From positions 1 through 64,000 of the forward strand of contig NZ_MUHX01000005.1 of NCBI RefSeq assembly GCF_002007215.1: 64,000 nt of DNA, given 5' to 3'. The notes under the pieces were generated by a model that was not told the DNA's origin, searched no databases, and saw only the letters and a list, made by a program, of their open reading frames with translations. Shown here one piece after another: positions 1-15,843 of this stretch. Positions within the stretch are counted from its first letter, which is position 1; the number at the start of each line of letters is the position of its first letter. The position numbers and the translations under genes are program-made. The DNA comes from Pyramidobacter sp. C12-8 (GTDB taxonomy: Bacteria > Synergistota > Synergistia > Synergistales > Dethiosulfovibrionaceae).

Positions 1-2
1 TC

Positions 3-815
3 TTCGCCGGCAAAGTGAGCGCCCAAGGCTTCGACGCAACCCACCACAAAATCGAGAACGTCAAAGCCGGAGACGTGAGCGCGGCCAGTACCGACGCCAT
101 CAACGGAGCGCAGCTGTGGAAGGCTTCGAGCAGCCTCGCCACCCACCTCGGCGGCGGCTCCTCCGTCAACCCCGACGGCACCGTCTCCGCCCCCACCTAC
201 AAGTTCAAGTACGTGGACGGCGGCAGCTACAACACCGTCGGCGACGCCTTGAGCGCCGTAGACAAACAGTTCGGCAAAGTCTACAACAACTTCGGCAACG
301 TCTACAACCAGATGGGCGAACTGCGGCGCGACCTCAAGAACGTCGGCGCGCTCGGCTCCGCCCTGAGTGCCTTGAAACCGATGCAGTACGACCCGCTCGA
401 ACCCAGCCAGCTCATGGCCGGCTTCGGAACGTACAAAGGCGAATACGCCCTGGCCCTCGGCTGGGCGCACTACGTGAAAGAAGACTTCATGGTCCACGCC
501 GGAGTGTCCGTCACCCACCACGGCGAGTCGATGGCCAACGCCGGCCTGACGTGGAAGATCGGCAGGAAAGCAGACAAGGAACAGATCCCCGAACGTTACC
601 GCAAAGGCCCGATGAGCAGCGTCTACGTGATGCAGAAGGAGAACGCCCAGCTGCAGGCGCAGGTGGCGTCGCATGCACACGAGATCGCGGAGCTGAAGGC
701 TTCCCAGGCGCACGAGATTGCCGAACTGAAGGCTTCTCAGGTCCGCGAGATGGCGGAACTGAAAGCCGACATGGAAGAGATGAAGCGTCTGCTGCGGGCT
801 TCGAAACGGAGATAA
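3..815 (+). CDS. Trimeric autotransporter adhesin (YadA-like), C-terminal part only
   Basis: The reading frame is open to the left edge, so the 5' part of the gene lies outside the window; the GTG at 15 is an internal Val codon. The first visible residues carry the stalk motif [16 protein letters not shown], typical of YadA/Hia stalk and head repeats. A short coiled coil ([19 protein letters not shown]) leads into a four-strand anchor that ends near TWKIGRK. The anchor normally forms the 12-strand trimeric outer-membrane pore. Unusually, about 80 further residues follow the anchor: a [13 protein letters not shown] linker, then a charged coiled coil with 11-residue repeats. Family proteins usually end at the last barrel strand. 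Family assignment is secure; the function of the tail is unknown. Confidence 0.9.
675..773 (+). repeat. Three tandem 33-bp units encoding hendecad coiled-coil repeats
   Basis: Three consecutive 33-bp units encode [22 protein letters not shown] and [11 protein letters not shown]. The 11-residue spacing of I/L positions is that of a hendecad coiled coil, not of heptads. The first two peptides are identical although their DNA differs at several third positions, which suggests selection on the protein after duplication. Confidence 0.85.
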
Positions 816-913
816 CGTTTCAGCCTAACGTTCCGATCCTTGGATCGGCACGTATCGGCAATGTAATGTAAAGAGAAAGGACTGCAAAGGAAAGGACCGG
901 CAATGCAGAGAAA

Positions 914-950
914 AAGGGCGGAGTCTTATTCGCTCCGCCCTTCTTCTTTG
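914..950 (+). terminator. Rho-independent terminator of the adhesin gene
   Basis: A 10-bp perfect stem, AAGGGCGGAG paired with CTCCGCCCTT (914-923 with 933-942), is followed by a T-rich tract. It lies 100 bp after the adhesin stop codon. Confidence 0.85.
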
Positions 951-1015
951 TTCGTTTTTTATCTGTTTCTATTTATTTTCTATCAATTTGCCATTTATTC
1001 GAGGAGGTTTTATCA

Positions 1016-1546
1016 GTGAAACGTTTGATGCAGGCGGCAGTTTTATTTCTGACATTCGCTATGTCCGCGGCGGCGTCCGCCACGGAGATCGCCGTGGTGG
1101 ACACGGAAAAGCTCCTGGTCCAGTCCGAACCCGGCAAGCTGGGACGGGCCCATCTGGAGGCAGTGCAGAAAGTGCTCCAGAAAGGGTATAACGACCTGCG
1201 GGCGCTGTACCGCGGCCAGGAGAACACGGCCGAGGCGCAGAACGCGGTCGCGCAGGGACAGGCGGCGCTGGAACGGCAGATGGAAGTGGAACGCGCGGCG
1301 GTGACGTCGGTGCTGCAGTCGGAACTGATGGCGTCCGTGGAAACGTGGCGGAAGAAGAATCCGAAGTTCCACGCGGTGATGGCGCGTCAGCTGCTGCTCG
1401 ACGCGGCGCCCAGGCTGGACGTCACCGACGCCGTGCTGAAGGAGATGAACAGGCGCAGGCCGAAGTTCGCCGCCCTTCCCACGGTGACGGTGAAGAAGCC
1501 GGAAGTCCCCGCCAAGGCGGAACAGGCGTCTGCGGAAGCGAAGTAA
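1016..1546 (+). CDS. skp: OmpH/Skp-like periplasmic chaperone
   Basis: Predicted 176-residue exported protein. GTG is chosen as start because GAGGAGG (1001-1007) lies 8 nt upstream and the reading begins with a signal peptide (KRLMQAAVLFLTFAMSAAASA). The mature part opens with EIAVVDTEKLL, which matches the AVVDxxKV/LL opening of Skp proteins. A long charged helical stretch follows (about 45-110), as in the Skp tentacles. Skp chaperones unfolded outer-membrane proteins across the periplasm. The C-terminal part (about 110-176) ends in a Lys/Pro/Ala-rich tail. It follows an outer-membrane adhesin, which fits, but the terminator between them says they are separate transcripts. Confidence 0.75.
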   Translation: MKRLMQAAVLFLTFAMSAAASATEIAVVDTEKLLVQSEPGKLGRAHLEAVQKVLQKGYNDLRALYRGQENTAEAQNAVAQGQAALERQMEVERAAVTSVLQSELMASVETWRKKNPKFHAVMARQLLLDAAPRLDVTDAVLKEMNRRRPKFAALPTVTVKKPEVPAKAEQASAEAK

Positions 1547-1741
1547 CGGCCGAAACAGGAAAAACGGAACGACAGGATCCCCGAGCGGGGGAGGCGCAAA
1601 AAACGCGTCCCCCGCGCGGGCATCGTTTCGTCTCGGGTGTCCCGTCAGCGCCGCTCGGAATCGAGATAATGCGGCGTCCGGTACGTGAGCACTTCGGCCG
1701 AGCTTTCGCCGACCAGCATCATGTCTTTGATTGGGAAGAAT
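1547..1741. other. Gene-free interval with a possible coding remnant on the minus strand
   Basis: No complete gene is visible. A GC hairpin (GCGGGGGA 1585-1592 with TCCCCCGC 1608-1615) lies 38 bp after skp but has no T tract. On the minus strand 1722-1645 reads MMLVGESSAEVLTYRTPHYL and ends four codons later. It has no evident ribosome site. It could be the end of a decayed gene; this is weak. Confidence 0.2.
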
Positions 1742-1820
1742 AAGGACAAAAAAGCGCCCCGGATTTTCAAGCCCAGTGTGCCGTTCCCGAACGGCACACC
1801 GGGCTCGAAAATCCGGGCGC
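1742..1820 (-). terminator. Terminator of the nitrogenase-like/ABC operon
   Basis: A long imperfect inverted repeat (1754-1786 with 1787-1820, arms beginning GCGCCCCGGATTTTC and ending GAAAATCCGGGCGC) is followed on the minus strand by a run of six T (1748-1753). It lies 35 bp after the stop codon of the last gene in the minus-strand operon. Confidence 0.85.
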
Positions 1821-1854
1821 TTGGTTGATTTCGATTTTCCGCCGCTCTTTGCCC

Positions 1855-2649
1855 TCACGCCTGCGCGGCGATGGACAGCGGCACGACGGTGTTGTAGGTG
1901 ACGCCGCCGCGCTGGAAATCGTGGATCGAGACGTTCACGCCGAAGGCGCGGCGCATGTTGTCTTCGGTGATGACGTCCGGCGCCGCGCCGTACAGATCCG
2001 TCTCGCCGCGCCCGAGCAGCAGCGCCTTGTCCGACAGCTTGAGGGCGTGCGCGGGAAAATGCGTGTTGACGATCACCGACATGCCGTGTTCGTGCGCCAG
2101 ATGGCGGATGATGTCGAGGATCACCAGCTGGTTGCGGAAGTCGAGGTTGGATTCCGGCTCGTCCATGACCAGCAGCCGCGGCTGCGCCGCCAGGGCGCGG
2201 GCGGTGAGCACGAGCTGCAGCTCGCCGCCGCTCATGCGGTCGCAGCGCTTGTCCGCCAGTTTGACGATGCCCGCTTCTTCCATGGCTGCCGTGGCGATCG
2301 CCTCGTCCTTCGGTCCCGGCTGGCGCGTCACGCCGAGATGGGCGCTGCGCCCCAGCAGCACCATCTCGCGGGCGGTGTAGGGGAACAGGCTTCCCTTGGC
2401 CTGCGGCACGTAGGAAACGCGGCTCCACAGCTCGCGCGCCGCATAGTCCGCCAGCGGTCGGCCGTCGATGACGGTGCGCCCGCTCTTCCACGGCAGAAAT
2501 CCCATCATGCAGCGCAGCAGCGTGGTCTTGCCGACGCCGTTGGGGCCGAGGATCGCCAGGATCTCGCCGGGGCGCACGGAGAAGGACAGGTCGCGCAGGA
2601 TCGCGCGCCCGCCGTAATCGAAGCAGCCTTTTTCGACGGAAAAGATCAT
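1855..2649 (-). CDS. FecE/BtuD-type ABC transporter ATPase
   Basis: 264-residue ATP-binding subunit of a metal-chelate importer at the inner membrane. Walker A is GPNGVGKTT (about 39-47), the signature is MSGGELQ, Walker B is LLVMDEPESNLD, and the switch His is in VNTHFP. Length and the SVRPGEILAILGPNG context match the iron-siderophore/heme/cobalamin class. The ATG at 2649 overlaps the permease stop as ATGA, so the two are translationally coupled. It is the last gene of an operon that begins with nifH-, nifD- and nifK-like genes. The substrate cannot be read from the ATPase. Confidence 0.9.
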   Translation of the reverse strand: MIFSVEKGCFDYGGRAILRDLSFSVRPGEILAILGPNGVGKTTLLRCMMGFLPWKSGRTVIDGRPLADYAARELWSRVSYVPQAKGSLFPYTAREMVLLGRSAHLGVTRQPGPKDEAIATAAMEEAGIVKLADKRCDRMSGGELQLVLTARALAAQPRLLVMDEPESNLDFRNQLVILDIIRHLAHEHGMSVIVNTHFPAHALKLSDKALLLGRGETDLYGAAPDVITEDNMRRAFGVNVSIHDFQRGGVTYNTVVPLSIAAQA

Positions 2650-3653
2650 TGCGCCGTCCCCCTCGTCCTGCGCAGCAGCGAGATGAACACCGGCGCGCCC
2701 ACGAGCGCTGTGAGGATCGACACGGGGATCTCGGCGGCGGTGAGGCTGCGCGAGCAGGTGTCGATGACGAGCGTGAAGACCGCGCCGAGCGAGACGCAGG
2801 CGGGGACGATGCGCTGGTTGTTGCCGCCGCGGAGCATGCGCGCGATGTGGGGGATCAGCAGGCCGATCCAGCCGATCTTGCCGCACATCGATACGCAGGA
2901 CGCCGTCATCGCCGTGGCCGCCAGAATCACCGCCAGGCGCATGGCGCGCAGGTTGACGCCCATGGAGCGGGCCTCGTCCTCGCTGAGGGCGAGGATGTTG
3001 AGCCGCCAGCGCAGCAGGTAGATCGTGAGCGCGCCCGCGGCGATCATCGGCAGGCCGACCAGCAGCGTCGAGTAATTGGCGGCCGAAAGGCTGCCCATCA
3101 GCCAGTAGGTGATCGTCGGCAGCACTTCTTCCGGGTCGGCCACGTACTTGAGCAGCGACACGGCCGCCTCGAACAGCGCGCCGATGACCAGGCCCGACAG
3201 CACGATCATGATGATCGAGTTCTTGCCGCGCACCTTGGAGATGGTCCACGTCAGCGCCACGGCGCCGAGGCCGAAACAGAGCGCGAAAAGCTGCACGGAG
3301 ACCATGTCGAGCCGGAACATCAGCGCCGCGACGGCGCCGCACGAAGCGCCGCTGGAAACGCCCAGCGTGTCGGGCGTCGCCAGCGGATTGTTGAACAGGC
3401 TTTGAAAGGCCGCTCCCGAGAGCGCCAGCGCCGCGCCGCAGCACAGCGCCGTGAGCACGCGGGGCAGGCGTACGCCGAAGACGACCGACCGCTCCATGGG
3501 CGCGATCTCCGCTCCGGTCAGCGGCGACAGCAGCACGCGCAGCGTGTCGCTCGTGCTCAGCGCGTAACGGCCGAAGCCGAGGCAGAGCAGCGCCGCCAGC
3601 ACGGGAACGGCCCAGAGCAGCAGCGCGCCGAAGCGACGTGATTGACCGGCCAT
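2646..3653 (-). CDS. FecCD/BtuC-type ABC transporter permease
   Basis: 335-residue inner-membrane permease. It has about ten hydrophobic segments. Family motifs are visible: PRVLTALCCGAALALSGAAFQ, NPLATPDTLGVSSGA and GKIGWIGLLIPHIAR. The last is the coupling region that docks on the ATPase. Length is normal for the family (about 330-350). FecCD permeases import Fe-siderophores, heme, cobalamin or related chelates. Its start overlaps the upstream binding-protein stop as ATGA and its stop overlaps the ATPase start the same way, so the subunits are made from one message. Confidence 0.92.
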   Translation of the reverse strand: MAGQSRRFGALLLWAVPVLAALLCLGFGRYALSTSDTLRVLLSPLTGAEIAPMERSVVFGVRLPRVLTALCCGAALALSGAAFQSLFNNPLATPDTLGVSSGASCGAVAALMFRLDMVSVQLFALCFGLGAVALTWTISKVRGKNSIIMIVLSGLVIGALFEAAVSLLKYVADPEEVLPTITYWLMGSLSAANYSTLLVGLPMIAAGALTIYLLRWRLNILALSEDEARSMGVNLRAMRLAVILAATAMTASCVSMCGKIGWIGLLIPHIARMLRGGNNQRIVPACVSLGAVFTLVIDTCSRSLTAAEIPVSILTALVGAPVFISLLRRTRGTAQ

Positions 3654-4735
3654 CAGAAGATCGCGGCCTCGCGGGGCGGGTTATAAATGGCTTTCAGATC
3701 CTCGCCGGTCAGCTCGTAACCGTAAAAGCGGCGGTAGTAATCCTTCATCATCGCGTCCAGGTCGACGTCGCCGAACAGCTCGGGATGCACGCGCTGCGCC
3801 ACCCAGACCAGGCTCAGCGGCGTGTCGCCGGAGGGCGGGTACCAGCGGTAGACGCCGAGCGGGAACTTGTGGACGCGCCTGTTTTTGACGGCGGCGACGT
3901 TGCTCCAGTCGTAGCCCTCGATGGCGTTGTCGTAGAAGTCCTCGGGCACGTAGGGGCAGAAGTTGTTGATGAAGATCACCTCGGGATCCCAGCTGTAGAT
4001 CTGCTCGAGGTTGACCGTCTTCCAGCCTTTCAGTTCCGCGGCCGCGTTGACGCCGCCGGCGTGTTTGAGGTAGAAGGAAGCGTAATCGCCTGAACCGGCG
4101 ACCACCAGCTGGCCGCCGCTGAATCCGGCGAACATCAGCGCGCGCGGTTTTTCGGCTGTGTTCGCTGTGCGTTCCTGGATCATCTTCAGCGTCTCGCGGC
4201 CGAAGTCCGCCACGCCGTCGGTCTTGTCGCCGGAGCCGAAGATCTTGCCAAGATAGTCCGCCCAGTCGGCGAACGTGCCCACGGGATCGCCGCCGTACTT
4301 GCCGGGTTTGAAGCCCACGGCGGGGATGCCGGCGCGCCGGTACATCTCGCCCTCGGCCTTCTCGCTGGCGCGGTAGAACACCACGTCGGGGGCCATCTTG
4401 ATGATCTCCTCGACGTTGATCTTGCCGCCTGTGGCGAAGTCGCACTTCAGCTTGAGGATGTCGGGATACATCTTCGCCAGGTAGGAATGTTCCGCCGCGC
4501 TCATGGCCGCCGCGGGGATGCCAACGAGCCCCTGCGCGCCGCCGCGGTAGAGGCAGTAAATGCTGGTCAGCGGCATGATCGAAGAGATCACCACGCGCTC
4601 GGGATTTTTCGGAACCGTCGCCTCGGCCCCCGTATCGTCGACAAAAGTCACCGTCTCCCCGCTTTTTCCCCAGCCGGGAGCGGCGAAAAAAAGCGCTCCG
4701 ATCAGCAGGAACGAAAGAAAATTTGTCCGCTTCAT
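3653..4735 (-). CDS. Periplasmic metal-chelate-binding protein, second copy
   Basis: 360-residue substrate-binding protein of the FepB/BtuF (periplasmic-binding type III) family. A signal peptide (KRTNFLSFLLIGALFFAAPG) is followed by the family opening TVTFVDDTGAEATVPKNPERVV. The long helix between the two lobes and the VIFINNFCPYVPEDFY region are present. It is closely related in sequence to the product of the gene just upstream, and the two share whole blocks such as NNFCPYVPEDFY and GYDWS, so they arose by tandem duplication. The stop overlaps the permease start. Two binding proteins for one permease suggest related ligands or different affinities. Confidence 0.9.
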   Translation of the reverse strand: MKRTNFLSFLLIGALFFAAPGWGKSGETVTFVDDTGAEATVPKNPERVVISSIMPLTSIYCLYRGGAQGLVGIPAAAMSAAEHSYLAKMYPDILKLKCDFATGGKINVEEIIKMAPDVVFYRASEKAEGEMYRRAGIPAVGFKPGKYGGDPVGTFADWADYLGKIFGSGDKTDGVADFGRETLKMIQERTANTAEKPRALMFAGFSGGQLVVAGSGDYASFYLKHAGGVNAAAELKGWKTVNLEQIYSWDPEVIFINNFCPYVPEDFYDNAIEGYDWSNVAAVKNRRVHKFPLGVYRWYPPSGDTPLSLVWVAQRVHPELFGDVDLDAMMKDYYRRFYGYELTGEDLKAIYNPPREAAIF

Positions 4736-4793
4736 CGCGATTCTCCTTTGATATGAACGAAATCGAATTTACGCGGCCGCGCCGCGAAAACGC

Positions 4794-5891
4794 CTAATAG
4801 ACGGCCGCTTCGCGCGGCGGGGCGCAGATGTATTCCACGTCTCCGTCGCTCAGATCGTAGCCGTAGAAGCGGCGGTAATAGTCCTTCATCGCCTGCGCCA
4901 TGTCCACATCGCCGAACAGTTCCGGCTGCAGGCATTTGGCCGCCCACAGCAGGCTGAGCGGCGCGTCGCCCGCGGGCGGGTACCAGCGGTACATGCCCAG
5001 CGGGAACTTGTAGACGCGCCTGTTCTTGACGGCGGAAACGCTGCTCCAGTCGTAGCCCTTGATGGCGTTGGCGTAGAAGTCCTCGGGCACGTAGGGGCAG
5101 AAGTTGTTGATGAAGATCACCTCGGGATCCCAGGCGTAGACCTGTTCGAGGTTGACCGTCTTCGAGCCGTTCAGCGCCGAAGCGACGTTGACGCCGCCGC
5201 CCTCGTTGATGTAGAACTCGGCGAAGATCGTGCCGCCGGCCGCCGCCAGCTGGCCGTCGCGGAACCCGGAGAAAACGATCGCGCGCGGACGCTGTTCGGG
5301 CTTGAGCGACGCGGTGCGGACGCGCAGTTTTTCCAGCGTCTCGCGGCCGTATTCGGCGATGCCGTTGGTCTGTCCGCCGCCGCCGAAGATCTGGTCGAGC
5401 CGCTCGATCCAGCCGGCGAACGTGGCGATGGTGTCGACGCCGTGCTTGCTGGTGCTGAACGCCACCGCGGGCAGCCCGGCCTTGCGGTACATGTCGCCCT
5501 CGGCGACCTCGTTGGCGCGGTAGAAGACCACGTCGGGATGCAGCTTCATCACTTCTTCGACGTTCACCTTGCCGCCTTTGGCGAAATCGCATTCCAGCGT
5601 GAGGATGTCGGGGTAGACCTTGGCCAGATAGGAATGGCGCGCCGCGCTCATGGCCGCCGCGGGGATGCCCACGAGATTCTGCACGCCGCCGCGGTACAGG
5701 CAGTAGACGCTGGTCAGCGGCAGGATCGAGGAGATCACGATGCGCTGGGGATTTTTCGGGAACGTCACTTCGACGCCGCGGTCGTCCACCAGCGTGATCG
5801 TCTCCCGCTCCGCGGCCGCAGCCGCAGCCGCGCCCGCCAGAGCCGCGCTGCAAAGCGCCGCGGCCAGAAAACTCGCGAAAAATCGTTTCAT
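4794..5891 (-). CDS. Periplasmic metal-chelate-binding protein, first copy
   Basis: 365-residue paralogue of the next gene in the operon. It has an Ala-rich signal peptide (residues 1-28), then TITLVDDRGVEVTFPKNPQRIV. Shared with its sister are IPAAAMSAA.HSYLAK.YPDI, the NNFCPYVPEDFY block, and YRWYPPxGDxPLSL. A good ribosome site (AAAGGAG) precedes the ATG. It starts 5 bp after the nifK-like gene, with no room for a promoter, which ties the importer to the nitrogenase-like genes. In this family the ligand is usually a siderophore, heme, corrinoid or metallophore; none can be singled out here. Confidence 0.9.
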   Translation of the reverse strand: MKRFFASFLAAALCSAALAGAAAAAAAERETITLVDDRGVEVTFPKNPQRIVISSILPLTSVYCLYRGGVQNLVGIPAAAMSAARHSYLAKVYPDILTLECDFAKGGKVNVEEVMKLHPDVVFYRANEVAEGDMYRKAGLPAVAFSTSKHGVDTIATFAGWIERLDQIFGGGGQTNGIAEYGRETLEKLRVRTASLKPEQRPRAIVFSGFRDGQLAAAGGTIFAEFYINEGGGVNVASALNGSKTVNLEQVYAWDPEVIFINNFCPYVPEDFYANAIKGYDWSSVSAVKNRRVYKFPLGMYRWYPPAGDAPLSLLWAAKCLQPELFGDVDMAQAMKDYYRRFYGYDLSDGDVEYICAPPREAAVY

Positions 5892-5896
5892 GTCTT

Positions 5897-7066
5897 TTAC
5901 GCTCCTTTACTCTTCGATAGAATCGCCTCGACGAGGCGGTCCATTTCGGCGCCCAGCCAATGGGGCGCGTGATCCCAATAGAGTTTGCTCGACAGCGCCG
6001 GATGAGGCAGTCCGACGAGTTCGACGCCGCTGTCCGGCGGGATCAGCCCGGCGAACAGCGGATCGCCGACGATCGTGCGGAAGCGCCCCGACTCGACCAG
6101 CCCGCGCAGCGCCGTTTCGTCGGCGACGTCCAGATCGCCGGGCGAAGCGAGGCGGCGGTCCAGCCCCAGCATCGTGCCGACCGTCACGGGCAGGCCGGGC
6201 GAACGGGCGAGGAGCTCCGCGCGCAGCGCGGCGGCGCACGCCTGTTCGCCGACGATCAGCACGCCGCCGTCGCGGCTGGGCGCGTTTTGCGCGCGGCATT
6301 GGCCGTCGGCCAGCGTCCGTTCGATCAGTTCCAGCGCCGTCTCGCCGCCGCACAGCGGCAGCGCCGCGACCCACGGGGCGCCGTAACGGCGGCGCAGCAG
6401 TTCCGCCGCGTCCATCCCCGACTGCGTGACGGCGAGGTTGAGCGCGGCTTCGCCGAGGCGTTCGATTTGTTCGAGCGAAACGCCCATCATCAGGCGGCCG
6501 TTCACTTTCAGCCCATGCCCTTCGAGGAACGCGGCCAGTTCGGCGGCGTTGCCGTTGTCGGCAAAGTCCAGCGGCGTCATGCCGAGGATGTTGACGCTGC
6601 GGGGGATCTTCTCTTTCGTTTCCTTCGCGAAGCGCTCGATCAGCGCGGTCTGCGCGGCGCCGACGCCCGCGCCGTAGCGGACGATGCCGTTGGTCGGGAA
6701 ACCGAAACAGGGCAGGCCGGTGTGGTTTTCCAGCTCCGCGGCGATGCCCTTGAAGTCCGTGCCGATCACCATCGGCACGGGGCTGCCGATCACGGCGACC
6801 ATCGTGGGACGGAGTTCCTCGCAGGCCGCGATGACGCGGTCGACGAGCTTGTCGTCGTCGCCCAGCACGGCGTCGATCTCGCGCAGTCCCGAACAGAACG
6901 TCCGCGCCGGCGCGTCGTACCAGCGCGGCTCGTCGTAGCCCGTGTAGTTGCCCGTGCAGCCCGAGGCGTCGTGAATGACGGCGAGGCCGCCCAGCTCGTA
7001 CATGGCGGAGCAGACGCCCGAATAATCGCCGGCGTAGGCCGGCAGCGTGATCCACAGTTTGCTCAC
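5897..7066 (-). CDS. Nitrogenase component 1-like protein, NifK-like subunit
   Basis: 389-residue protein of the nitrogenase component 1 fold (NifD/NifK, BchN/BchB and CfbD relatives). The GTG at 7066 is chosen because it overlaps the upstream stop as GTGA and the family sequence begins there. Candidate P-cluster-like ligands are Cys37 (HDASGCTGNYTG) and Cys58 (TFCSGLRE), with Cys19 near the start. The place where NifD/NifK carry their third Cys (TCxxxxxGDD) reads VIGSPVPMVIGTD, so that Cys is absent. It is shorter than NifK (about 520), like the simpler nitrogenase-like reductases. It should pair with the D-like subunit encoded just before it. Reaction unknown. Confidence 0.85.
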   Translation of the reverse strand: MSKLWITLPAYAGDYSGVCSAMYELGGLAVIHDASGCTGNYTGYDEPRWYDAPARTFCSGLREIDAVLGDDDKLVDRVIAACEELRPTMVAVIGSPVPMVIGTDFKGIAAELENHTGLPCFGFPTNGIVRYGAGVGAAQTALIERFAKETKEKIPRSVNILGMTPLDFADNGNAAELAAFLEGHGLKVNGRLMMGVSLEQIERLGEAALNLAVTQSGMDAAELLRRRYGAPWVAALPLCGGETALELIERTLADGQCRAQNAPSRDGGVLIVGEQACAAALRAELLARSPGLPVTVGTMLGLDRRLASPGDLDVADETALRGLVESGRFRTIVGDPLFAGLIPPDSGVELVGLPHPALSSKLYWDHAPHWLGAEMDRLVEAILSKSKGA

Positions 7067-8346
7067 AGCACCAGCCCCGCTTTCTTCACCATGTCTTTCA
7101 GGTCGCTCTCCGCGGCGGCCGCGGCGCGGATCATCTCCAGCATCGCCGCGATGCCGCGGTAGCCCCAGTGCCCCTGCTGCGCGTCGGCGGGGGCCACGTG
7201 CCGCGAGCCGGTGATGTAGCCGCTGTTGTAGCCGATGCAGAGGCTTCCGGGCAGGCGGTCGCGGAAAAGCGCGCGCTGCGGATCCTGCGGCTGCATGATC
7301 TCGACTGCGGCGCAGCGTTCGCGCAGCCAGCGGTAATTTTCCGCGTCGGGGCCGACGACGTCCTGCACGATCAGGCGCTTCACGCAGAAGCCGCGTTCCA
7401 GCAGCGCCCTGGCGAGATCGAACGGCCGCGTCACGGCGTCGCCGTCGAGGACGACGGGCTGTCCGGCCAGAACTTCGCGCGTGCGCGCGAAATCCTCTTC
7501 GCACGCCGCCTCGTAACCCGAAAGGTCGGGACAATCCGCGCCGAGCGCCGCCGCCAGAGCGCGATACGTTTTCGTCACCTCGCGCGGGTCGTAGCTGACC
7601 AGCGCCCGCAGCCAGGGCGTGCCGTGCTTCTTTTCCATCCGCTCCGCCGCGTAAACGCCCGGCGGCGCCAGAACCACGTTCAGGCGGCTGCGCGCCATCT
7701 GCTGGAACTCACCGAACGTCGAAAAGTCGGTGATCTGCCGCGCGGGAACCGCGCCCATGCGCGCCAGCAGATCGTAATACTCGCCGTCCTTCAGCAGCGG
7801 CACGAGGCTGCCGATCAGGTTGACGCCGCCGTCTTTCCGCTCGGCCACGTCGAGCGTGGAATAGATCTTGTCGCGGATGTTCACGGCCGGCGGCACCTTG
7901 GTGTCGGTGGTGATGGGGTTCATGTGGCAGTCGATGAAGCGCACTTCGGGATGGCGCGCGTGCAGTTCCGCCGCTAGCGCCTCGTGGTCGGTGCCGAGCA
8001 GGTCGTCGAGGCAGGTGACGAAGATCATCATCACCCGCGGCGTGCGGCCGCGCTTTTCCAGCCAAGCCAGCAGCTCTTCCGCGCCGTCGACGATGGCCTG
8101 TTCGTAGCCGCCGGAGACGATGTCGTCCTCGCTCAGATAGAGATAGGAGATGGTGTCCTTGCGCCCCTGCAGACAGGCGCTCAGCGCGCCGTGGCGGCCG
8201 CAGGCGGCCGGGCCGGCGAAAAGCTGATAGCTCTCGGGCAGCAGCTGCCCCATGCGCGCCACGCCCCAGCTGCCGTGAGCCGGCGACGTGTACGTCAGCG
8301 TGCCGCGAAACGGGCTGCCGCAGGAAGCGCAGCCGCCGCAGCTCAT
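7063..8346 (-). CDS. Nitrogenase component 1-like protein, NifD-like subunit
   Basis: 427-residue component 1-like subunit. The N-terminus has CxxCxxC (Cys3, Cys6, Cys9), then [10 protein letters not shown] with Cys49 where NifD has its PxGC ligand, and [11 protein letters not shown] with Cys112 where NifD has its third ligand. So all three ligand regions for a bridging Fe-S cluster are present here, unlike in the partner subunit. The C-terminal half has the repeated Rossmann-like layout of the family and ends with the HWGYRG stretch. There is no evidence for a FeMo-cofactor pocket (no nifB, nifE or nifN nearby). Its start overlaps the nifH-like stop by 4 bases. Confidence 0.87.
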
Positions 8347-9098
8347 GAGCAGACCTCCATGACTTTTTGCGCCAACTCGCGGTAGCGAGACGCCATGGCC
8401 GAATCGGGCAGCGCTTCGACGACGGTTTTGCCCTGCGCTTCGGCGGCCTGCACGGCCCCGTCGCGAGGCACCGTGTAGAGCACCCGCGTCCCCATCTCCG
8501 AGGCGGCCTTTTCCACGAGCGCCTGTTCGTCCGCCACGTTGCGCGAGTTGAGGATCAGCCCGGCGACGCCGGCGTAGCCGCGCTTGCCGAAGTTATTCAC
8601 GGCGCTCACGATGTTCGAAGCCGCGTAGAGCGCCATCATCTCGCCCGAGGTGACGATCAGCACGCGGTCGGCGTAGCCGCCGCGGATCGGCATCGCGAAA
8701 CCGCCGCAGACCACGTCGCCGAGCACGTCGTAAAAGACGACGTCGGGCCGGTATGCGTCGTAGGCGCCGAGTTCCTCGAGCTTTTCGAAGGCGGTGATGA
8801 TGCCGCGCCCCGCGCAGCCGATGCCGGGCGTGGGGCCGCCGGCTTCGACGCAGAGGATGCCGTCGAAGCCCGTAAAAACGATGTCTTCCAGCGTCACGCC
8901 GGTCGCGCCTTTTTCGCGGATGCGGTCCAGCACCGTCGGGATCCGCACGCCCCCCATGAGCGTTTTGGTGGAGTCCGACTTGGGATCGCAGCCGATCTGC
9001 ATGACTTTATGGCCGAGGCGGCTCAGCGCCGCCGAGAGGTTGGACGCCGTCGTCGATTTGCCGATGCCGCCCTTTCCGTAAATCGCGATTTTGATCAT
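8343..9098 (-). CDS. NifH-like iron protein (dinitrogenase reductase family)
   Basis: 251-residue ATP-dependent reductase. Walker A is [11 protein letters not shown] (residues 7-17). Switch I is CDPKSDST. The two Cys that hold the inter-subunit [4Fe-4S] cluster are Cys95 in GIGCAGRG and Cys131 in [11 protein letters not shown], both in canonical context. NifH, BchL and CfbC all share this plan; such proteins pass single electrons to a component 1 partner with ATP hydrolysis. It is the first gene of the operon and is followed by both partner subunits. The family is certain, the pathway is not: similarity motifs alone do not tell NifH from CfbC-type proteins. Confidence 0.93.
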
Positions 9099-9143: not shown

Positions 9144-9186
9144 TTCGGATGTTGAAAATAAAAGTCAGTCTCCGCCCGAATTTTTA

Positions 9187-9200
9187 TTAGTTGAGACTAA
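9187..9200. promoter_or_regulatory. Candidate operator 1, TTAGT-N4-ACTAA
   Basis: A perfect 5-4-5 inverted repeat, TTAGT TGAG ACTAA, lies immediately downstream of the -10 element, where a repressor would block transcription start. It matches operator 2 in size and in the TTAG/CTAA ends. Confidence 0.5.
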
Positions 9201-9208
9201 CTTTTTGA

Positions 9209-9237
9209 GTTATACCATTCCAATCGGACGCTGTCAA
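9209..9237 (-). promoter_or_regulatory. Sigma70-type promoter of the nitrogenase-like operon
   Basis: On the minus strand a consensus -35 TTGACA (9237-9232) and a near-consensus -10 TATAAC (9214-9209) are separated by exactly 17 bp. It lies 111 bp upstream of the nifH-like ATG. No sigma54 (GG-N10-GC) site is seen, unlike many nif promoters. Confidence 0.8.
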
Positions 9238-9284: not shown

Positions 9285-9356
9285 CCGATAAAAAAGCTCC
9301 CCCTCGGGAGCGCCTCGCGAAATTTCTTCGCGTGTTCGCTTTGAGTGGGAGCTTGG
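9285..9356 (-). terminator. Terminator of the aromatic operon
   Basis: AAGCTCCC (9294-9301) pairs with GGGAGCTT (9347-9354), with a further internal stem CGCGAA/TTCGCG. On the minus strand the stem is followed by TTTTTATC. It is the first terminator downstream of aroQ; the MITE-like repeat lies between aroQ and this site. Confidence 0.65.
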
Positions 9357-9585: not shown

Positions 9586-10020
9586 CTATTCCCGATCCCG
9601 GTCCAGCAGCAGGTCGACGGCGTCGAGGTAGCCTTTCAGGCCGCGCCCGGCGATCTGGGCGACGCAGGCGGCGCGGGTGTAGGAATGGCGGCGGAAATCC
9701 TCGCGCGACTGGATGTCGCTGACGTGGACTTCGACGGCGGGAATGCCCACGGCGCGCAGCGCGTCGGGAATGGCGACGCTGGTATGGGTGTAGGCGGCGG
9801 GATTGATGACGATGCCGTCGACCTTCCCATAGGCTTCCTGGATGCGGTCGACGATCGCGCCTTCGTGGTTGCTTTGGAAGAATTCCACGTCCGCGCCGGC
9901 GGCGGCGCAGTGCGCGCAGATCATTTTCTCCAGGTCGGCCAGCGTGGCGCGGCCGTAGATCTCCGGCTCGCGCACGCCGAGCATGTTCATGTTGGGGCCG
10001 TTGACGACGAGGATCTTCAT
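9586..10020 (-). CDS. aroQ: 3-dehydroquinate dehydratase, type II
   Basis: 144-residue cytosolic enzyme that dehydrates 3-dehydroquinate in the shikimate pathway. Type II motifs are clear: [19 protein letters not shown] with the catalytic Tyr, [27 protein letters not shown], and [18 protein letters not shown] with the catalytic His. Length is normal (about 145). The ATG at 10020 overlaps the aroE-aroK stop as ATGA. It is the last gene of the operon. Its placement at the end is out of pathway order, as is common. Confidence 0.96.
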
Positions 10021-11234
10021 AGCTGCAAAGCCTCCTTGATTTTTGCGGCGGCGTCCTGCGCCGACGACGCGGAAACGGTCAGGTCGGCCCAGGCGCGGTA
10101 CAGCGGCAGACGCCGGCGGCGCAGTTCTTCCACGCCGACGGACTGCGACAGGGGCCTTCCGTCGACGGGCAGTTCGCCAGGGCGGTCGAGCCAGACGCAG
10201 ATCCCGTTCTGGCGGAGCAGCGGGCGGTTGCGCGGCTGCGTGACCACGCCGCCGCCGGTGGCGATGACGATGCCGCTCTCCTTGGAGACGTCGGCCAGCG
10301 CCTCGGTCTCGAGCCTGCGGAAGGCGGCTTCGCCGCGGCGGGCGAAAATTTCCGCGATCGGGCAGCCCTCGCGTTCGGCGACGATCCGATCGAGGTCGCG
10401 CACGGGGCGCCCCGTCAGCCGGCCGAGAACCTGCGCCGTCGTGGTCTTGCCGCAGCCGGGCATGCCGATGAGCGCGACGTTGCCGGTACGGCGGGCGATG
10501 GCTGCGGCGATGCGGTCCGTCAGCGCCGCGGGCAGTCCGCGGCCGAGGAACAGTTCGCCGGCGCGCACGGCCTGGGCGGCCAGCATCGCCAGGCCGCCGC
10601 GCGCGGGGAGGCCGAGTTCTTCGGCCTGAAGGAGCAGCGCCGTGCGCAGCGGGTTGTAGATCACGTCGAGCACGAGCCGGCATCTGGGAAAGAGCCGCAG
10701 ATCCACGGGGGAGGCGCCGTTTTTCGGGTACATTCCCACGGGCGTCGCGTTGACGATCAGCTCGGCGTCGGCGTGCCTTTCGAGGGTGGCGTAGGTGTCG
10801 CTCCCCGAGCGCGAGATCACGGCGAAGGGGATGCCGCAGCTTGTCAGCACGGCGCGCACGGTGCGCGAAGCGCCGCCGCTGCCCAGCACGAGCGCGGGGC
10901 GACCGCGCAGACGTTCCGCGTCTTCCCCGAGCAGATGCAGAAAACCGTCCCAGTCCGTGTTGTCGCCGCGCCATCCCCCGCCGGGCAGGCGCGTCAGCGT
11001 GTTGACGCAGCCGACGGCGCGGGCGCGCTCCGACAGCTCGCGGCAGCTTTTCATCGCGTCGATCTTGTAGGGAATGGTGACGTTGAAGCCGTCGCCGTCG
11101 CTCGCGCGCAGAAAGCCGTCCAGCTCTTCCGGCTCCAGGGGATAGAGCTTGTACTCGTAATCGCCGATCAGGGCGTGGATGGCGGGCGAGAAGCTGTGGC
11201 CGAGCGCGCGTCCGATCAGGCCGAAGCGCCCCAT
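10017..11234 (-). CDS. aroEK: Bifunctional shikimate dehydrogenase - shikimate kinase
   Basis: 405-residue fusion of two consecutive shikimate-pathway enzymes. Residues 1-245 are Aro[11 protein letters not shown] shikimate-binding start, NVTIPYK with the catalytic Lys, GDNTDWDGF, and the nucleotide loop LGSGGASRT. Residues about 250-405 are AroK: Walker [11 protein letters not shown], the DLDR motif, [13 protein letters not shown], and ATGGGVV. Both active sites look intact, so NADPH-dependent reduction of dehydroshikimate and ATP-dependent phosphorylation occur on one chain. Separate proteins are the usual bacterial state. The ATG directly follows the pheA stop with no gap. Confidence 0.93.
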
Positions 11235-12374
11235 TTACACCACCTCGGAGTAGCTGCCCAGATATTTGAGCGTGGTGACGGCGCCCTGCAGGTCGTCGAA
11301 GATGCGCAGGAAGGAATCGTCATAGACGGAGGAGTCGAGGTCGAAATAGAACATGAATTCGAAATCGCTGTTGGCCAGCGGCCGGCTCTCCAGCTTGAGC
11401 AGATTGATGTCCAGCGCCTTGAAGCGGGACAGCACGTGCGACAGCGAGCCGCGCTTGTGCGGCAGCACCATCATCAGGCTGGTGCGGTTGGCGCCGGGAT
11501 AAATTTCCAGATCTTTGGCGATGCAGATGAAGCGCGTGAAGTTGCTGCCCGCGTCCTGTACGGAAGCCTTGAGGCAGTCCAGGCCATAGAGTTCGGCGCA
11601 GCCGCGCGACGACAGCGCCGCCAGATCCTTGCGCCCCGACTCGCGCACCATCTGCGCGGCGACGGCCGTGTTCTTGACGGGCGTGGCCTTGACGCCGAGC
11701 GACTTGAGAAAGCTCTGGCTCTGCGCCAGCGCCTGCTCGTGAGAGATGATCTCTTTGATGTCGCCGATGGAAACTCCGGGATTGGCGAGCAGGCAGTGGT
11801 CGATCTTGACGCGGCAGCTGCGCACGATGTAGCAGCTGTGCTCCATCATCAGATCGTAGATACGGTTCACCGAGCCGGCCGTGCTGTTCTCGATGGGCAG
11901 CACGCCGTAGCGGCACAGCCCCTGCTCGACGGCGGAAAAGACGTTTTCGAAGTACTGAAAGTACATGATGCTGCCCGAGGGGAACATGCGCTCGCAGGCC
12001 ATCTGCGAATTGGCCCCCTCCGCGCCCTGACAGGCGACCGCGGAACGGATGGGAAACTGCGCCGGCGTGTTGGCCAGCGCCAGCGAGATCTGCCGCTTGA
12101 GCGGCGAACCGCCGGCGATGATGCGGTGCTGCTCGGAACGACTCAAGTCGAAGATCAGCGAGAACAGCGCGTCCATGGACGGCGCCATCTCTTCCCCGAC
12201 CGAACCGGCCAGATCGTTGAGCTTCTGACGTTCGCGGGCGGGATCGTAGATGGGGATCTTGTTTTTGGCTTTGTAGGCGGCGATGTCGCGCACGACGGCG
12301 AAGCGCCGCGTGATCAGGTCGACCAGACCGCGGTCGATCTCGTCGATCTGGGTGCGAAAATCTTTCATGTCCAT
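11235..12374 (-). CDS. pheA: Chorismate mutase / prephenate dehydratase (P-protein)
   Basis: 379-residue bifunctional enzyme for phenylalanine synthesis. Residues 1-90 are an AroQ-class chorismate mutase helix bundle ([18 protein letters not shown], then YDPARERQK). Residues about 105-285 are prephenate dehydratase with [21 protein letters not shown], and [10 protein letters not shown], which holds the catalytic Thr-Arg-Phe. Residues about 295-375 are an ACT domain with [10 protein letters not shown] and LESRPL, the Phe-binding motif for feedback inhibition. So the product controls both this enzyme and, through the leader peptide far upstream, probably the operon. It starts 3 bp after aroC. 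Confidence 0.95.
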
Positions 12375-12377
12375 TTT

Positions 12378-13487
12378 TCATTCGGCTCCTTTGAGCGGTT
12401 CGTAATTTCCCGGAAGCAGGGCGTCGCAGAGGGCGACGGCGGCGGCCGCTTCGACGACGGGGACGGCGCGCACGGCCGCGCAGGGATCGTGACGGCCTTT
12501 GACTCTCAGCTCCGTGGGCTGCATGGTCCTGAGGTTGAGGGTCCGCTGCGCGCGGGCGATGGAAGGCGTCGGCTTGAAGGCGGCGCGGAAGATCAGCGGC
12601 ATGCCCGTGGAGATGCCGCCGAGAATGCCGCCGGCGTGGTTCGTGGCCGTGCGTACGGCGCCGTCTTCGCACACGAACGGGTCGTTGTGCTCGCTGCCCC
12701 TCATGGCCGCGGCCGCGAAACCGCTGCCGAATTCCACGCCCTTGACGGCGGGAATGCCGAAAAGCAGCGAGGCGATCCCGCCTTCGAGCCCGCCGAACAT
12801 CGGCTCGCCGAGCCCCGCCGGCAGGCCGACGGCGGCGCATTCGACCACGCCGCCGAGCGAATCCCCCGCGGCGCGGGCGGCCTCGATCGCCGCGGCCATA
12901 CGCGCCCCGGCGGCCGCGTCGAGCACCGTCAGCGGCGAGAAAAGGCGCGCGTCGAAATCGGACCGGGAGACGGACACGGCGTCGAAAGCGCGATCCTCCA
13001 CGCCGCCGACGCTCCTGAGATGCGCGCCGACGAAGATCCCCCGCGCCTCGAGGATTTGCAGACAAACGCCGCCGGCCGCGGTCAGCGGCGCCGTGAGCCG
13101 GCCGGAAAAATGGCCGCCGCCCGAGGCGTCCTGAAAGCCGCCGTACTTGACGGCACTCGTGTAGTCGGCGTGCCCCGGCCGCGGCACGTCCCGAAATTCG
13201 GAGTAATCGCCGGGCCGCGCGTCGGCGTTGCGGATGATCAGGCAGAGCGGAGAGCCGCACAGCCGCCCGCCGGCAAGACCCGAAAGGAACTCGATCCGGT
13301 CGGCCTCGCGGCGCGGCGTCGCCAGCGGGCCGCCGGGCGCGCGGCGTTTCATGAAGGCGTCCAGCCGCTCCATGTCCACGCGGAACCCGGCCGGCAGCCC
13401 CTCGATCACGGCGCCGACGGCGGCCGAATGGGACTGCCCGAAGATGGAGAGGCGGATGCGTTCCCCCCAGCTTGAACTCATGATCAT
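12378..13487 (-). CDS. aroC: Chorismate synthase
   Basis: 369-residue FMN-dependent enzyme that makes chorismate from EPSP. Motifs: GQSHSAAVGAVIEGLPAG, the RAPGG loop, GRPGHADYTSAVKYG-type region (PRPGHADYTSAVKYGGFQDASGG), and GGISTGMPLIFRAAFKPTPSI. The ATG at 13487 overlaps the aroA stop (ATGA); a second ATG two codons later is also possible. Length is typical (350-390). The enzyme needs reduced FMN but does no net redox, and usually acts as a tetramer in the cytosol. Confidence 0.95.
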   Translation of the reverse strand: MIMSSSWGERIRLSIFGQSHSAAVGAVIEGLPAGFRVDMERLDAFMKRRAPGGPLATPRREADRIEFLSGLAGGRLCGSPLCLIIRNADARPGDYSEFRDVPRPGHADYTSAVKYGGFQDASGGGHFSGRLTAPLTAAGGVCLQILEARGIFVGAHLRSVGGVEDRAFDAVSVSRSDFDARLFSPLTVLDAAAGARMAAAIEAARAAGDSLGGVVECAAVGLPAGLGEPMFGGLEGGIASLLFGIPAVKGVEFGSGFAAAAMRGSEHNDPFVCEDGAVRTATNHAGGILGGISTGMPLIFRAAFKPTPSIARAQRTLNLRTMQPTELRVKGRHDPCAAVRAVPVVEAAAAVALCDALLPGNYEPLKGAE

Positions 13488-14749
13488 GCCTCCGTTCTGA
13501 CGACGCCGCCGAGCGCGGCGAAGTCGCCGAAAAAGCCCGGATAGGACTTGTCCACCGCTTCCGCGCCCGTGATCGTCACCGTCTCGGAACACAGCACCGA
13601 GGCGGCCGCGCCCAGCATGGCGATGCGGTGATCGCCGCACGCGTCGACGATGCCGCCGCGCAGCGAGCCGCACCCGTCGATGAGGATGCAGTTGCCGTCG
13701 GGCACCGCGTGTCCCCCCAGAGCGTTCAGCGCGCCGCAGACCGAGGCGACGCGGTCGCTCTCTTTGAGCCGCAGCCGCCCGACGTTCGCGATCGCCGTGC
13801 GCCCTTTGACCGCCGCCGCGGCGACGGCCAGCGCGGGCACCAGATCGGGCGTGTCGCTCGCGTCGATGCATGTTTCGCGCAGCTCCGCCGGCGCCGCCGC
13901 GATGGAATCGCCGGCGATCGAGACTTCGGCCCCCATGCGCCGCAGGAACTCCGCCACGGCGCTGTCGCCCTGCAGCGACGGCAGCGCCAGCCCCGTGACG
14001 GCGAGCTTTGCGCCGGCCGCCCCGGCGCAGAGCCAAAAGGCCGCGTTGGACCAATCGCCTTCGGCTCTCAGCTTGGCGGGGGCGACGTATCGCTGCGCGC
14101 CGGAGACGGAGAAGCCGCCGACGGAACGGCCGACGGTGATGCCGAAAGCCGCCAGCGCCGCCAGCGTCATGTCGACGTAACCGGCCGATTCCAGCCGGTC
14201 GGCGATGAGGACGCGGCTGCTGCCTTCGAGCAGCGGCAGCGCAAAGAGCAGTCCCGTGAAAAACTGCGACGACACCGTGCCGGGCAGACGGTACCGGCCC
14301 GCCGTCAGCCGCCCCTCGACGACGGGGTGAACCGTTCCCTTGCCGGTGATGACGGCGCCGTGCCGCTCCATTTCGTTCCACAGATCGTCCATCGGCCGCG
14401 ACGGCAGTTTGCCGTGCAGCGTGAAGCGTGCCTTTCGCCCCAGCGCGGCCGCCAGCGGCGTCATGAACCGGTACGTGGAGCCGCTTTCCCCCGGATCGAG
14501 TTCGACCGCGCCGCCCGCGTTCCGGTCCAGCGGCGTGACGGCGATGGCGCTGCCGTCGAAGGCGATCCCGGCTCCCAGCGCTTTCAGGCAGCGCACCGTG
14601 GCCTCGATGTCCTGCGAGACGACGCGGCAGGGCAGCTTCGTCGGCCGGTCGCCCAGCGCGGCGCAGATCAGCAGACGATGGACGTGCGACTTCGAAGGGA
14701 TGGCGGCGATCGTGCCGCTCAGTTTGCGGGGCGTGATGGTGACGATCAT
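13484..14749 (-). CDS. aroA: 3-phosphoshikimate 1-carboxyvinyltransferase (EPSP synthase)
   Basis: 421-residue enzyme that joins shikimate-3-phosphate and phosphoenolpyruvate. The PSKSHVHRLLI start matches the SKS substrate loop, and GESGSTYRFM, LHGKLPSRPMDDL, TVSSQFFTGLLFALP, EGDWSNAAFWL and LRLKESDR are recognisable. The family's usual LxGDxDxxxR block is replaced by weaker variants, so it belongs to a divergent group, but the catalytic Lys/Asp/Glu regions are in place. The start at 14749 overlaps the aroB stop. Confidence 0.93.
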   Translation of the reverse strand: MIVTITPRKLSGTIAAIPSKSHVHRLLICAALGDRPTKLPCRVVSQDIEATVRCLKALGAGIAFDGSAIAVTPLDRNAGGAVELDPGESGSTYRFMTPLAAALGRKARFTLHGKLPSRPMDDLWNEMERHGAVITGKGTVHPVVEGRLTAGRYRLPGTVSSQFFTGLLFALPLLEGSSRVLIADRLESAGYVDMTLAALAAFGITVGRSVGGFSVSGAQRYVAPAKLRAEGDWSNAAFWLCAGAAGAKLAVTGLALPSLQGDSAVAEFLRRMGAEVSIAGDSIAAAPAELRETCIDASDTPDLVPALAVAAAAVKGRTAIANVGRLRLKESDRVASVCGALNALGGHAVPDGNCILIDGCGSLRGGIVDACGDHRIAMLGAAASVLCSETVTITGAEAVDKSYPGFFGDFAALGGVVRTEA

Positions 14750-15843
14750 GCCGTGACGCCCTCCGTTTCGTCCGCGGACAGGGCTTCGAGCCCGTCTTCG
14801 AGGAATTCTCGCGCCTCTTCGAGCATGACCTTGCGCCGCTCCACGCTGCCGATGCCGCGGGGAAGCACGAGCGTGACCGTGTCGGAAGCGCGCTTTTTGT
14901 CGGCGAGCATGCCCGCGAAAAGTTCGTCGGCTCCGAACCGGGTCGTCTGCGGCAGGCCGCGCCGCCGCAGGGCGCCGGACAGCTGGACGAGCGTCTCCGG
15001 CGCGCAGATGCCGCGTTTGGCGCTGGCGGCGGTGATGATCATCATGCCGATGGCGACGCAAAAACCGTGCGGGATCGAAAAGCCGCTGCATTTTTCCACG
15101 GCGTGGCCGAACGTGTGCCCGAAGTTGAGGATCTGGCGCAGCCCCGTCTCCTTCTCGTCGCGGCGCACCACGTCGCGTTTGATCTCCACGCAGCGGTGCA
15201 CGATCCCGGCGATCTCGGCGGCGCCGAGGTCGGGCTTGCACGCCGCGCCGAAAAGTTTGGCGTCGCGGATCATGCCCGTCTTGACGATCTCGCCGAAGCC
15301 GTTGGCCAGCTGCTCTTTCGGCAGCGTCGCCAGCGTTTCCGTGTCGTAGAGCACCAGATCGGGCTGATAGAACGTGCCGACCAGGTTTTTGCCCGTCTCG
15401 AGGTCGATGGCCGTCTTGCCGCCCACCGATGAGTCGACCGCGGCCAGCAGCGACGTCGGCAGTTGTACGAGGCCGATGCCGCGCATATACAGCGAGGCCG
15501 CCAGCCCGCCCAGGTCGCCGACGACCCCGCCGCCGAGGGCGAAGAGCGTGTCGCTGCGGATCATGCGCAGCGCGGCCATGCGGTTGAGCAGGTCGAGGAG
15601 CGAACGCATGTTCTTGTTCCGCTCGCCGGCGGGAACGACGTGCAGGGTCGGCCGGAAGCCGGCGCGTTCCAGCGAGTCGGCGACGCGCCGCGCGTAAAGC
15701 GGCGCCACGTTGGCGTCGGAGACGATCAGCGCCTGACCGGCGCCGCGCAGGGGCGCGGCGATCTCGCCGGCGGCGCCGAGCAGATCGGCGCCGGTGTGCA
15801 CGTAGTACTTCTTCGAAGGCGTGGAAACTGTGACGCTGTTCAT
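14746..15843 (-). CDS. aroB: 3-dehydroquinate synthase
   Basis: 365-residue NAD- and metal-dependent enzyme that cyclises DAHP to 3-dehydroquinate. Motifs are GGGVVGDLGGLAASLYMRGI, LPTSLLAAVDSSVGGKTAID, NLVGTFYQP, ANGFGEIVKTGMI, and the metal-binding LNFGHTFGHAVE. All are intact. Its ATG abuts the tyrA stop codon directly, so reinitiation is likely. Length is normal (about 360). Confidence 0.96.
   Translation of the reverse strand: MNSVTVSTPSKKYYVHTGADLLGAAGEIAAPLRGAGQALIVSDANVAPLYARRVADSLERAGFRPTLHVVPAGERNKNMRSLLDLLNRMAALRMIRSDTLFALGGGVVGDLGGLAASLYMRGIGLVQLPTSLLAAVDSSVGGKTAIDLETGKNLVGTFYQPDLVLYDTETLATLPKEQLANGFGEIVKTGMIRDAKLFGAACKPDLGAAEIAGIVHRCVEIKRDVVRRDEKETGLRQILNFGHTFGHAVEKCSGFSIPHGFCVAIGMMIITAASAKRGICAPETLVQLSGALRRRGLPQTTRFGADELFAGMLADKKRASDTVTLVLPRGIGSVERRKVMLEEAREFLEDGLEALSADETEGVTA

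Follow-up and report, generated by a model that had tools for sequence, protein, structure and literature searches.

A nitrogenase-like reductase operon joined to a chelate-type importer in Pyramidobacter: a candidate route of anaerobic iron acquisition

An uncharacterised clade of nitrogenase-like proteins, which includes Mlab_1040/1039, Dhaf_1539/1540 and proteins of Coprococcus catus and Dorea longicatena, was drawn in red in Figure 4 of Dos Santos et al. 2012 (PMC3464626). Mlab_1040/1039 and Dhaf_1539/1540 have two cysteines in the D protein and one in the K protein, and it was suggested that a non-cysteine residue completes the Fe-S site, as in dark-operative protochlorophyllide reductase (DPOR). 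The same paper noted that nif-like genes can adjoin ABC transporters, as in M. labreanum, or hydrogenase maturation genes; on function it offered only speculation, without regulation or systematic linkage. Here we describe a locus of this kind from Pyramidobacter sp. C12-8, in a stretch of 64,000 nucleotides (the window; contig NZ_MUHX01000005.1, positions 1 to 64,000). On its minus strand (9098–1855), nifH-, nifD- and nifK-like genes (H, D and K; together HDK) are followed by genes for two Peripla_BP_2 binding proteins, a FecCD permease and an ABC ATPase. Because HDK is linked to such an importer across phyla, because an operator is common to the operon and feoB in relatives, and because the model of K resembles BchB of DPOR, we rate as about even the chance that the operon would serve anaerobic iron acquisition: a ferric chelate would be imported and reduced by H and DK at the cost of ATP, Fe(II) would be freed, and the operon would be repressed in iron-replete cells.

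The operon and its signals, from 5' to 3', comprise the following features:
9296–9311, minus strand: terminator-like hairpin, from a hairpin scan, which sets the operon apart from the upstream sequence
9209–9237, minus strand: sigma-70-type promoter, TTGACA (9237–9232), 17-nt spacer and TATAAC (9214–9209), matching 11 of 12 consensus positions
9186–9201, minus strand: putative operator GTTAGTCTCAACTAAT, one mismatch to GTTAG-N6-CTAAC, from motif enumeration
8343–9098, minus strand: nifH-like Fe protein, 251 aa, P-loop and cluster cysteines present (Pfam, NCBIfam)
7063–8346, minus strand: nifD-like component-1 protein, 427 aa, C49 and C112 invariant in the family (Pfam, alignment, AlphaFold2)
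5897–7066, minus strand: nifK-like component-1 protein, 389 aa, GTG start, C37 invariant, D14 near-invariant, DEPRWY motif (Pfam, alignment, AlphaFold2)
4794–5891, minus strand: substrate-binding protein 1 (SBP1), Peripla_BP_2, 365 aa (Pfam)
3653–4735, minus strand: substrate-binding protein 2 (SBP2), Peripla_BP_2, 360 aa (Pfam)
2646–3653, minus strand: FecCD-type permease, 335 aa (Pfam)
1855–2649, minus strand: ABC ATPase, 264 aa (Pfam, NCBIfam)
about 1745–1820 (ends approximate), minus strand: long inverted repeat followed by a T run, the probable operon terminator (read from the sequence, with partial hairpin-scan matches)

The seven genes lie where a preliminary description of this DNA had placed them, with coordinates and Pfam assignments in agreement. 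Fer4_NifH (E-value 8e-100) and two Oxidored_nitro domains (2e-29 and 3e-31) are joined within one operon by Peripla_BP_2 (twice), FecCD (4e-85) and ABC_tran, the importer families all exceeding their Pfam cut-offs. Of the ATGA overlaps reported for most junctions, those between H and D and between permease and ATPase (4 nt each) stand; the D/K junction is a 4-nt overlap of the form GTGA, at a GTG start, the SBP2/permease junction overlaps by 1 nt (TGATG), and gaps of 5 nt and 58 nt separate K from SBP1 and SBP1 from SBP2. The description was right that no promoter gap divides the unit, the sole promoter of which precedes nifH. Since the junctions are tight, one promoter precedes nifH and terminator-like hairpins lie at both ends, the seven genes are one operon by sequence criteria. 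The source genome (2.67 Mb, 99% complete) encodes one true NifH, two further matches being short P-loop matches only, and one D-type match. On these counts the genome appears to have no NifEN pair.

The union of reductase and importer, first remarked on in this one locus, proved to be real and conserved, in many gut anaerobes among others. A D-type match was found in 31 of 188 Synergistota genomes (a few of them weak), from 16 of 63 genera, and the seven-gene order recurs in about 15 Synergistota genera. In Synergistota loci with enough flank, the genes downstream of HDK encode an ATPase, a FecCD permease and either one or two binding proteins, with L052 as the sole exception, and this linkage persists although D identity drops to 29–30%. 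A scan of public genome contigs with the K alignment returned at least 583 related stretches; a scan of such contigs with the single D-protein sequence gave no matches. The best 80 of these relatives, those most similar to the window K, made up the locus set. They derive from Lachnospiraceae, Ruminococcus, Christensenella, Tissierella, Lactococcus, oral and rumen Treponema and other Spirochaetota, and also from Chloroflexota (including a Dehalococcoidia metagenome-assembled genome, MAG) and MAGs labelled Accumulibacter. Of the 73 loci that had enough flank, 69 have a linked FecCD permease, 68 of them identified by script and L091 by inspection, and these span Bacillota, Spirochaetota, Synergistota and Chloroflexota; this is not a family-wide census, since the loci are those nearest the window K and include some close duplicates. 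Five strong FecCD genes in a genome of this kind (2.67 Mb) would place one within 5 kb by chance about 2% of the time.

The importer genes may stand before or after HDK, and gene order varies between loci; D and K genes were paired in the loci seen. The four loci that have no linked FecCD permease are L064, L090, L124 and L126. In L090 (Lactococcus hodotermopsidis, 2–9098) the FecCD importer is replaced, HDK being preceded directly by an Opp/Nik-type importer block and a methyltransferase; the top models for this block are nickel and metallophore transporters, all scoring below cut-off. A complete HDK-importer operon is carried on the 424-kb plasmid pTS1 of Treponema saccharophilum (L133, NZ_AP025289.1), and a more distant copy with two permease genes lies on a Sporomusa termitida plasmid.

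The family stands outside the characterised clades with which it was compared. Neither of the two outcomes that the preliminary description had named as refuting it, placement inside a characterised clade and lack of the linked importer in all relatives, was obtained. The H protein reaches 345.4 bits against the NCBIfam NifH model (cut-off 394.35), 343.5 against CfbC (402), 215.6 against BchL (345) and 204 against BchX (331), while D and K reach 30.5 bits against CfbD (268.4), 24.7 against BchN (420) and 50.9 against BchB (490). All three proteins are below every curated cut-off for NifH, CfbC/D, BchL/N/B and BchX. In trees of D and of K the family forms one branch, with Shimodaira–Hasegawa-like approximate likelihood ratio (SH-aLRT) support of 99 and 100, apart from NifD/E, NifK/N, BchN/BchB, BchY/BchZ and a group IV (Mar/Nfa-like) reference; in the H tree the references fall on one side, with weak support. 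The tree references covered Nif, DPOR, chlorophyllide oxidoreductase (COR) and group IV, this last represented solely by Chlorohelix, typed by gene neighbours only; Cfb was compared by hidden Markov model (HMM) scores only. The D and K proteins of the Sporomusa plasmid lie outside the family branch in both trees. As long reference branches make the deep order unreliable, only separation is claimed.

Each of the described enzymes shares something with the family and departs from it elsewhere. The scores against NifH, the lack of six P-cluster cysteines and the lack of ligands for the iron–molybdenum cofactor (FeMoco) set it apart from nitrogenase. DPOR likewise combines a NifH-like ATPase with a two-subunit component 1 without FeMoco, and its [4Fe-4S]-type site would have a counterpart here, but D and K fall outside its branch, BchB has an aspartate at the position of K C37, and only the window system has an importer. 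CfbC/CfbD has a NifH-like partner and no FeMoco machinery, but a single catalytic subunit where the window has two. MarHDK and IsrHDK show the same group IV-type order of H, D and K, and the Isr pathway depends on an ABC importer; they differ in having a radical SAM partner (MarB, IsrB), no gene of this type being found in the window operon.

Conservation was computed over 52 D and 53 K sequences. Three cysteines are invariant, D C49, D C112 and K C37, and these occupy three P-cluster positions, aligning with alpha C88, alpha C154 and beta C95 of NifDK. No conserved cysteine was found at the equivalents of alpha C62, beta C70 and beta C153. K D14, a neighbour of the beta C70 position, is found in 52 of the 53 K sequences. 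In count, three cysteines and one aspartate match the cluster ligands of DPOR, in a different arrangement. Judged from alignment columns, conservation at 90% extends to no D cysteine or histidine besides C49 and C112; the FeMoco ligands (alpha Cys275 and His442) are accordingly missing. The equivalents of alpha C88, C154 and beta C95, the lack of FeMoco ligands and the anaerobic hosts are common to this family and the Dos Santos clade, the two being likened by cysteine pattern. AlphaFold2 models of D and K (mean predicted local distance difference test scores, pLDDT, of 83.5 and 82.3) have the nitrogenase component-1 fold, and that of K is well matched by BchB of DPOR (TM-score about 0.74–0.76) and by NifN/NifEN. 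This anatomy suggests one [4Fe-4S] cluster, through which electrons of the Fe protein would reach a substrate lodged in a cavity that is otherwise empty.

All 5-bp inverted repeats were enumerated in 85 dereplicated 350-bp regions upstream of nifH. One 16-bp element, GTTAG-N6-CTAAC, is exact in 27 of the 85 (0.03 expected), and in 40 dinucleotide shuffles no inverted repeat occurred in more than 5 regions. With at most one mismatch the element is present in 40 of 98 upstream regions, the window (9201–9186) among these. It lies just downstream of the -10 element of strong promoters: 21 of 39 such promoters score at least 10/12, against 10% of control positions. In the window it begins 13 nt past the start of the -10 element and covers the presumed transcription start, a placement with the geometry of a putative repressor site. 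Its consensus, GTTAGYNNNNRCTAAC, has 3–16 copies per genome in 15 of 16 genomes, against 0–5 (mostly 0–1) for the reversed control. Sites other than that of the operon precede FeoA/FeoB in four genomes, and also a P-type ATPase and heterodimeric ABC transporters, in one case accompanied by an AraC regulator. Upstream of feoB the operator is exact in 10 of 30 cases and within one mismatch in 16 of 30, with at least one in each of 16 genomes; six permuted palindromes gave no exact and 0–2 near matches there.

As the operator is common to the operon and feoB in the same genomes, the operon is part of an iron regulon in the relatives that carry it, and GTTAGYNNNNRCTAAC is a genome-wide iron-regulon operator in Clostridia, Christensenella and Treponema (genomes G188–G203, loci L163–L202). 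Its spacing matches CRP-type operators, and next to 13 loci lies a gene of the CRP/FNR family; a protein of this family is one candidate regulator. A Fur-box consensus is weakly above shuffle upstream of the operon (3 loci with two mismatches and 9 with three, against 1.3 and 4 expected), and consensus sites for FNR, CRP, Rex and NikR-like regulators show no enrichment there. Control by DtxR was discarded once an early DtxR-like signal proved to be the GTTAG-N6-CTAAC element itself. Rfam scans of 16 loci found no cobalamin, molybdenum cofactor (Moco), NiCo or other metal riboswitch near the operon.

The importer belongs, by its Peripla_BP_2, FecCD and ABC_tran families, with the FecCD/BtuC-type systems MolBC-A, FhuB, HmuUV and BtuCD-F. 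Permease and ATPase are below every substrate-specific NCBIfam cut-off; both score next to the haem and B12 models, far below the cut-offs. FhuB, a haem permease, HmuU and BtuC are among the solved relatives of the permease. The nearest solved binding protein is the uncharacterised 4ovk (181 bits); other near matches include several annotated iron- and nickel-complex proteins, and IsdE and haem-binding proteins are matched weakly. Conserved residues of the binding proteins are E109, E244 and Y296-R297-W298, which name no ligand. The two glutamates resemble those by which binding proteins of this importer class dock, whereas Y296-R297-W298 may be turned towards the ligand.

In the mechanism proposed, the cargo of the two binding proteins, the permease and the ATPase would be a ferric chelate, most probably a siderophore or a comparable Fe(III) complex that other organisms produce. 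In the cytosol, MgATP would drive the NifH-like protein to hand low-potential electrons to a [4Fe-4S] cluster between D and K, the ligands of which would be D C49, D C112, K C37 and perhaps also K Asp14. The imported complex would be reduced in the cavity that houses FeMoco in nitrogenase and Fe(II) would be released, while under plentiful iron a repressor at GTTAG-N6-CTAAC would turn the operon off. A low-potential, ATP-gated reductase suits chelates with potentials lower than those of NAD(P)H-driven reductases, tris-catecholates for example. Ferric-siderophore reductases of the SIP and FhuF types use NAD(P)H or ferredoxin and hydrolyse no ATP. Their role, reductive release of iron from an imported siderophore, is the one proposed here (flavin-containing SIP family, PMC11965169; FhuF type). 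In its widest form, held tentatively and a little short of even, the proposal is of an unrecognised but widespread anaerobic route in which an ATP-driven nitrogenase-like enzyme would reduce imported ferric chelates (siderophore or haem) too stable for ordinary reductases; this would give the superfamily a role in nutrient uptake, with a sister subfamily feeding hydrogenase cofactor assembly. The suggestion of chelate import and reduction in the preliminary description is borne out in part, the operator at feoB in relatives favouring iron over sulfur compounds; an iron chelate as the substrate, the cluster type, the direction of regulation and the chemistry of reduction are predictions of the proposal. 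That description knew of no system with this arrangement. The clade and the co-location of nif-like genes with ABC transporters are in fact in Dos Santos et al. 2012 (PMC3464626), while in the open-licence PubMed Central (PMC) literature no function, regulation or name for the clade was found, nor any description of an ATP-driven nitrogenase-like chelate reductase. New here are the quantified cross-phylum linkage, the operator common to the operon and feoB, the test for a separate clade, the additional conserved aspartate and the distinction of two subfamilies.

Several observations weigh against this proposal. The nearest solved permease is MolB of Haemophilus influenzae (2nq2), at 275 bits against 183 for FhuB, and MolA (3psa) is among the nearer binding-protein matches, at 96.5 bits. 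Neither of the two feoB genes of the window organism has an operator match close upstream, one of them having a one-mismatch operator about 970 nt upstream, and in the source genome the operator core TTAGTNNNNACTAA is found only at the nif-like operon; iron control in this organism is for these reasons an extrapolation from its relatives. Lastly, the position of the sister subfamily beside hydrogenase maturation genes, set out below, fits metallocofactor assembly better.

The alternative that survives best, unlikely as it is, is that the importer brings haem or another metallo-tetrapyrrole and that the reductase acts on the macrocycle or its metal, so that iron would be recovered without oxygen. 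The characterised superfamily members that lack the cofactor (BchLNB, BchXYZ, CfbCD) act on tetrapyrroles, the K model is near BchB, the importer scores fall beside haem and B12 models, though far under cut-offs, and its solved permease relatives include those for haem and BtuC; an iron regulon is compatible with haem too. Nevertheless, no haem-specific partner was seen among the neighbours examined, the matches of the binding proteins to IsdE and haem-binding proteins are weak, and lineages of rumen, termite gut and sediment, in which the family is widespread, seem unlikely to have haem as their main iron source.

Less probable again is a function in metallocofactor assembly, as proposed by Dos Santos et al. 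2012 (PMC3464626), in which the NifH/DK-like proteins would insert imported iron or another metal reductively into a metallocluster, the hydrogenase cofactor in the case of the sister subfamily. This subfamily (B), the D proteins of which are 25–33% identical to the window D and mostly end in a cysteine-rich C terminus such as IKGWGCCC, comprises L122 (2734–11526), L045 (8192–14591), L112, L127, L130, L124, L126 and G168:C32. In L122, HydE (552 bits, cut-off 254.6) and HydF are in one block with HDK and the importer; in L045 the ABC ATPase is fused to a TM1266 hydrogenase-regulator domain; in G168, HydE is immediately 5' of nifH. HypD/HypE adjoin HDK in L124 and HypF in L126, these being [NiFe] maturation proteins. 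By these neighbours subfamily B is linked to [FeFe]- or [NiFe]-hydrogenase maturation, and Coprococcus catus has a similar hydrogenase-maturation neighbourhood (PMC3464626). The window's own subfamily (A), in contrast, lacks such neighbours. The window organism has HydE (G000:C118:11035–12042, 512 bits) and no HydG, a state that it shares with 18 others of the 73 near-complete HydE-positive Synergistota genomes. HydG is missing in 9 of the 18 genomes that have HDK and in 10 of the 55 that do not (Fisher p 0.013, with relatedness ignored); 10 of the 19 HydG-less genomes thus do without HDK. As a substitute for HydG in H-cluster synthesis HDK is not supported for the window's subfamily, being neither necessary nor sufficient among the 73 genomes.

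Very unlikely is a transporter for molybdate or tungstate (MolBC-A-like), nickel or cobalt, with a reductase that reduces the species imported. MolBC-A of H. influenzae carries molybdate (PMC4031551), and the MolB and MolA matches given above speak for this possibility; however, the top binding-protein match is 4ovk, well above MolA, and the operator is common to feoB and not to a molybdenum gene. With no Moco riboswitch found in the 16 loci and the operator common with feoB, iron is favoured over molybdate. Sulfur assimilation by a Mar- or Isr-like C–S cleaving reductase with its own importer is disfavoured and scarcely credible, since, although Mar and Isr are likewise group IV nitrogenase-like enzymes and growth on isethionate via Isr requires an ABC importer (PMC11423573), Mar has a six-cysteine P-cluster, an [Fe8S9C] cluster and MarB (PMC12552129), whereas the window family has three cysteines, lacks both a conserved cofactor cysteine and a radical SAM gene in the operon, forms a clade of its own and has an importer of chelate rather than sulfonate type.

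If the iron-acquisition proposal is correct, a function would be assigned to one large unassigned branch of the nitrogenase superfamily, and hundreds of gut, oral, rumen and sediment anaerobes would gain a new pathway of iron uptake. Strict anaerobes might in this way draw on highly stable ferric chelates from other microbes or hosts, and the evolution of nitrogenase would be linked to metal scavenging. Surveys of nifH/nifDK in the gut would then be counting enzymes with no part in nitrogen fixation. Both the operator and the compactness of the operon lend themselves to direct tests of the proposal.

The window D and K proteins group with those of Clostridia and Lachnospiraceae (59% K identity to L053, against at most 45% to other Synergistota), and since they are nearer to these than to their counterparts in Synergistota the window copy was probably acquired by horizontal transfer. 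In other loci (L067, 3687–5988; L063, L076, L081 and L107) the operon has as neighbours the genes for a small ABC ATPase, a HypB/UreG-like GTPase and, in those loci where it was read, an SBP_bac_6 protein; together they may form a metal chaperone module. In the window the operon is adjoined on the same strand by an aromatic amino acid block (9586–15843, read from the sequence) with a type II dehydroquinase, an AroE-shikimate kinase fusion (10017–11234), a chorismate mutase/prephenate dehydratase, AroC and AroA. At the start of the window, 15–815 encodes, on a reading of the sequence only, the C-terminal part of a YadA-like trimeric autotransporter.

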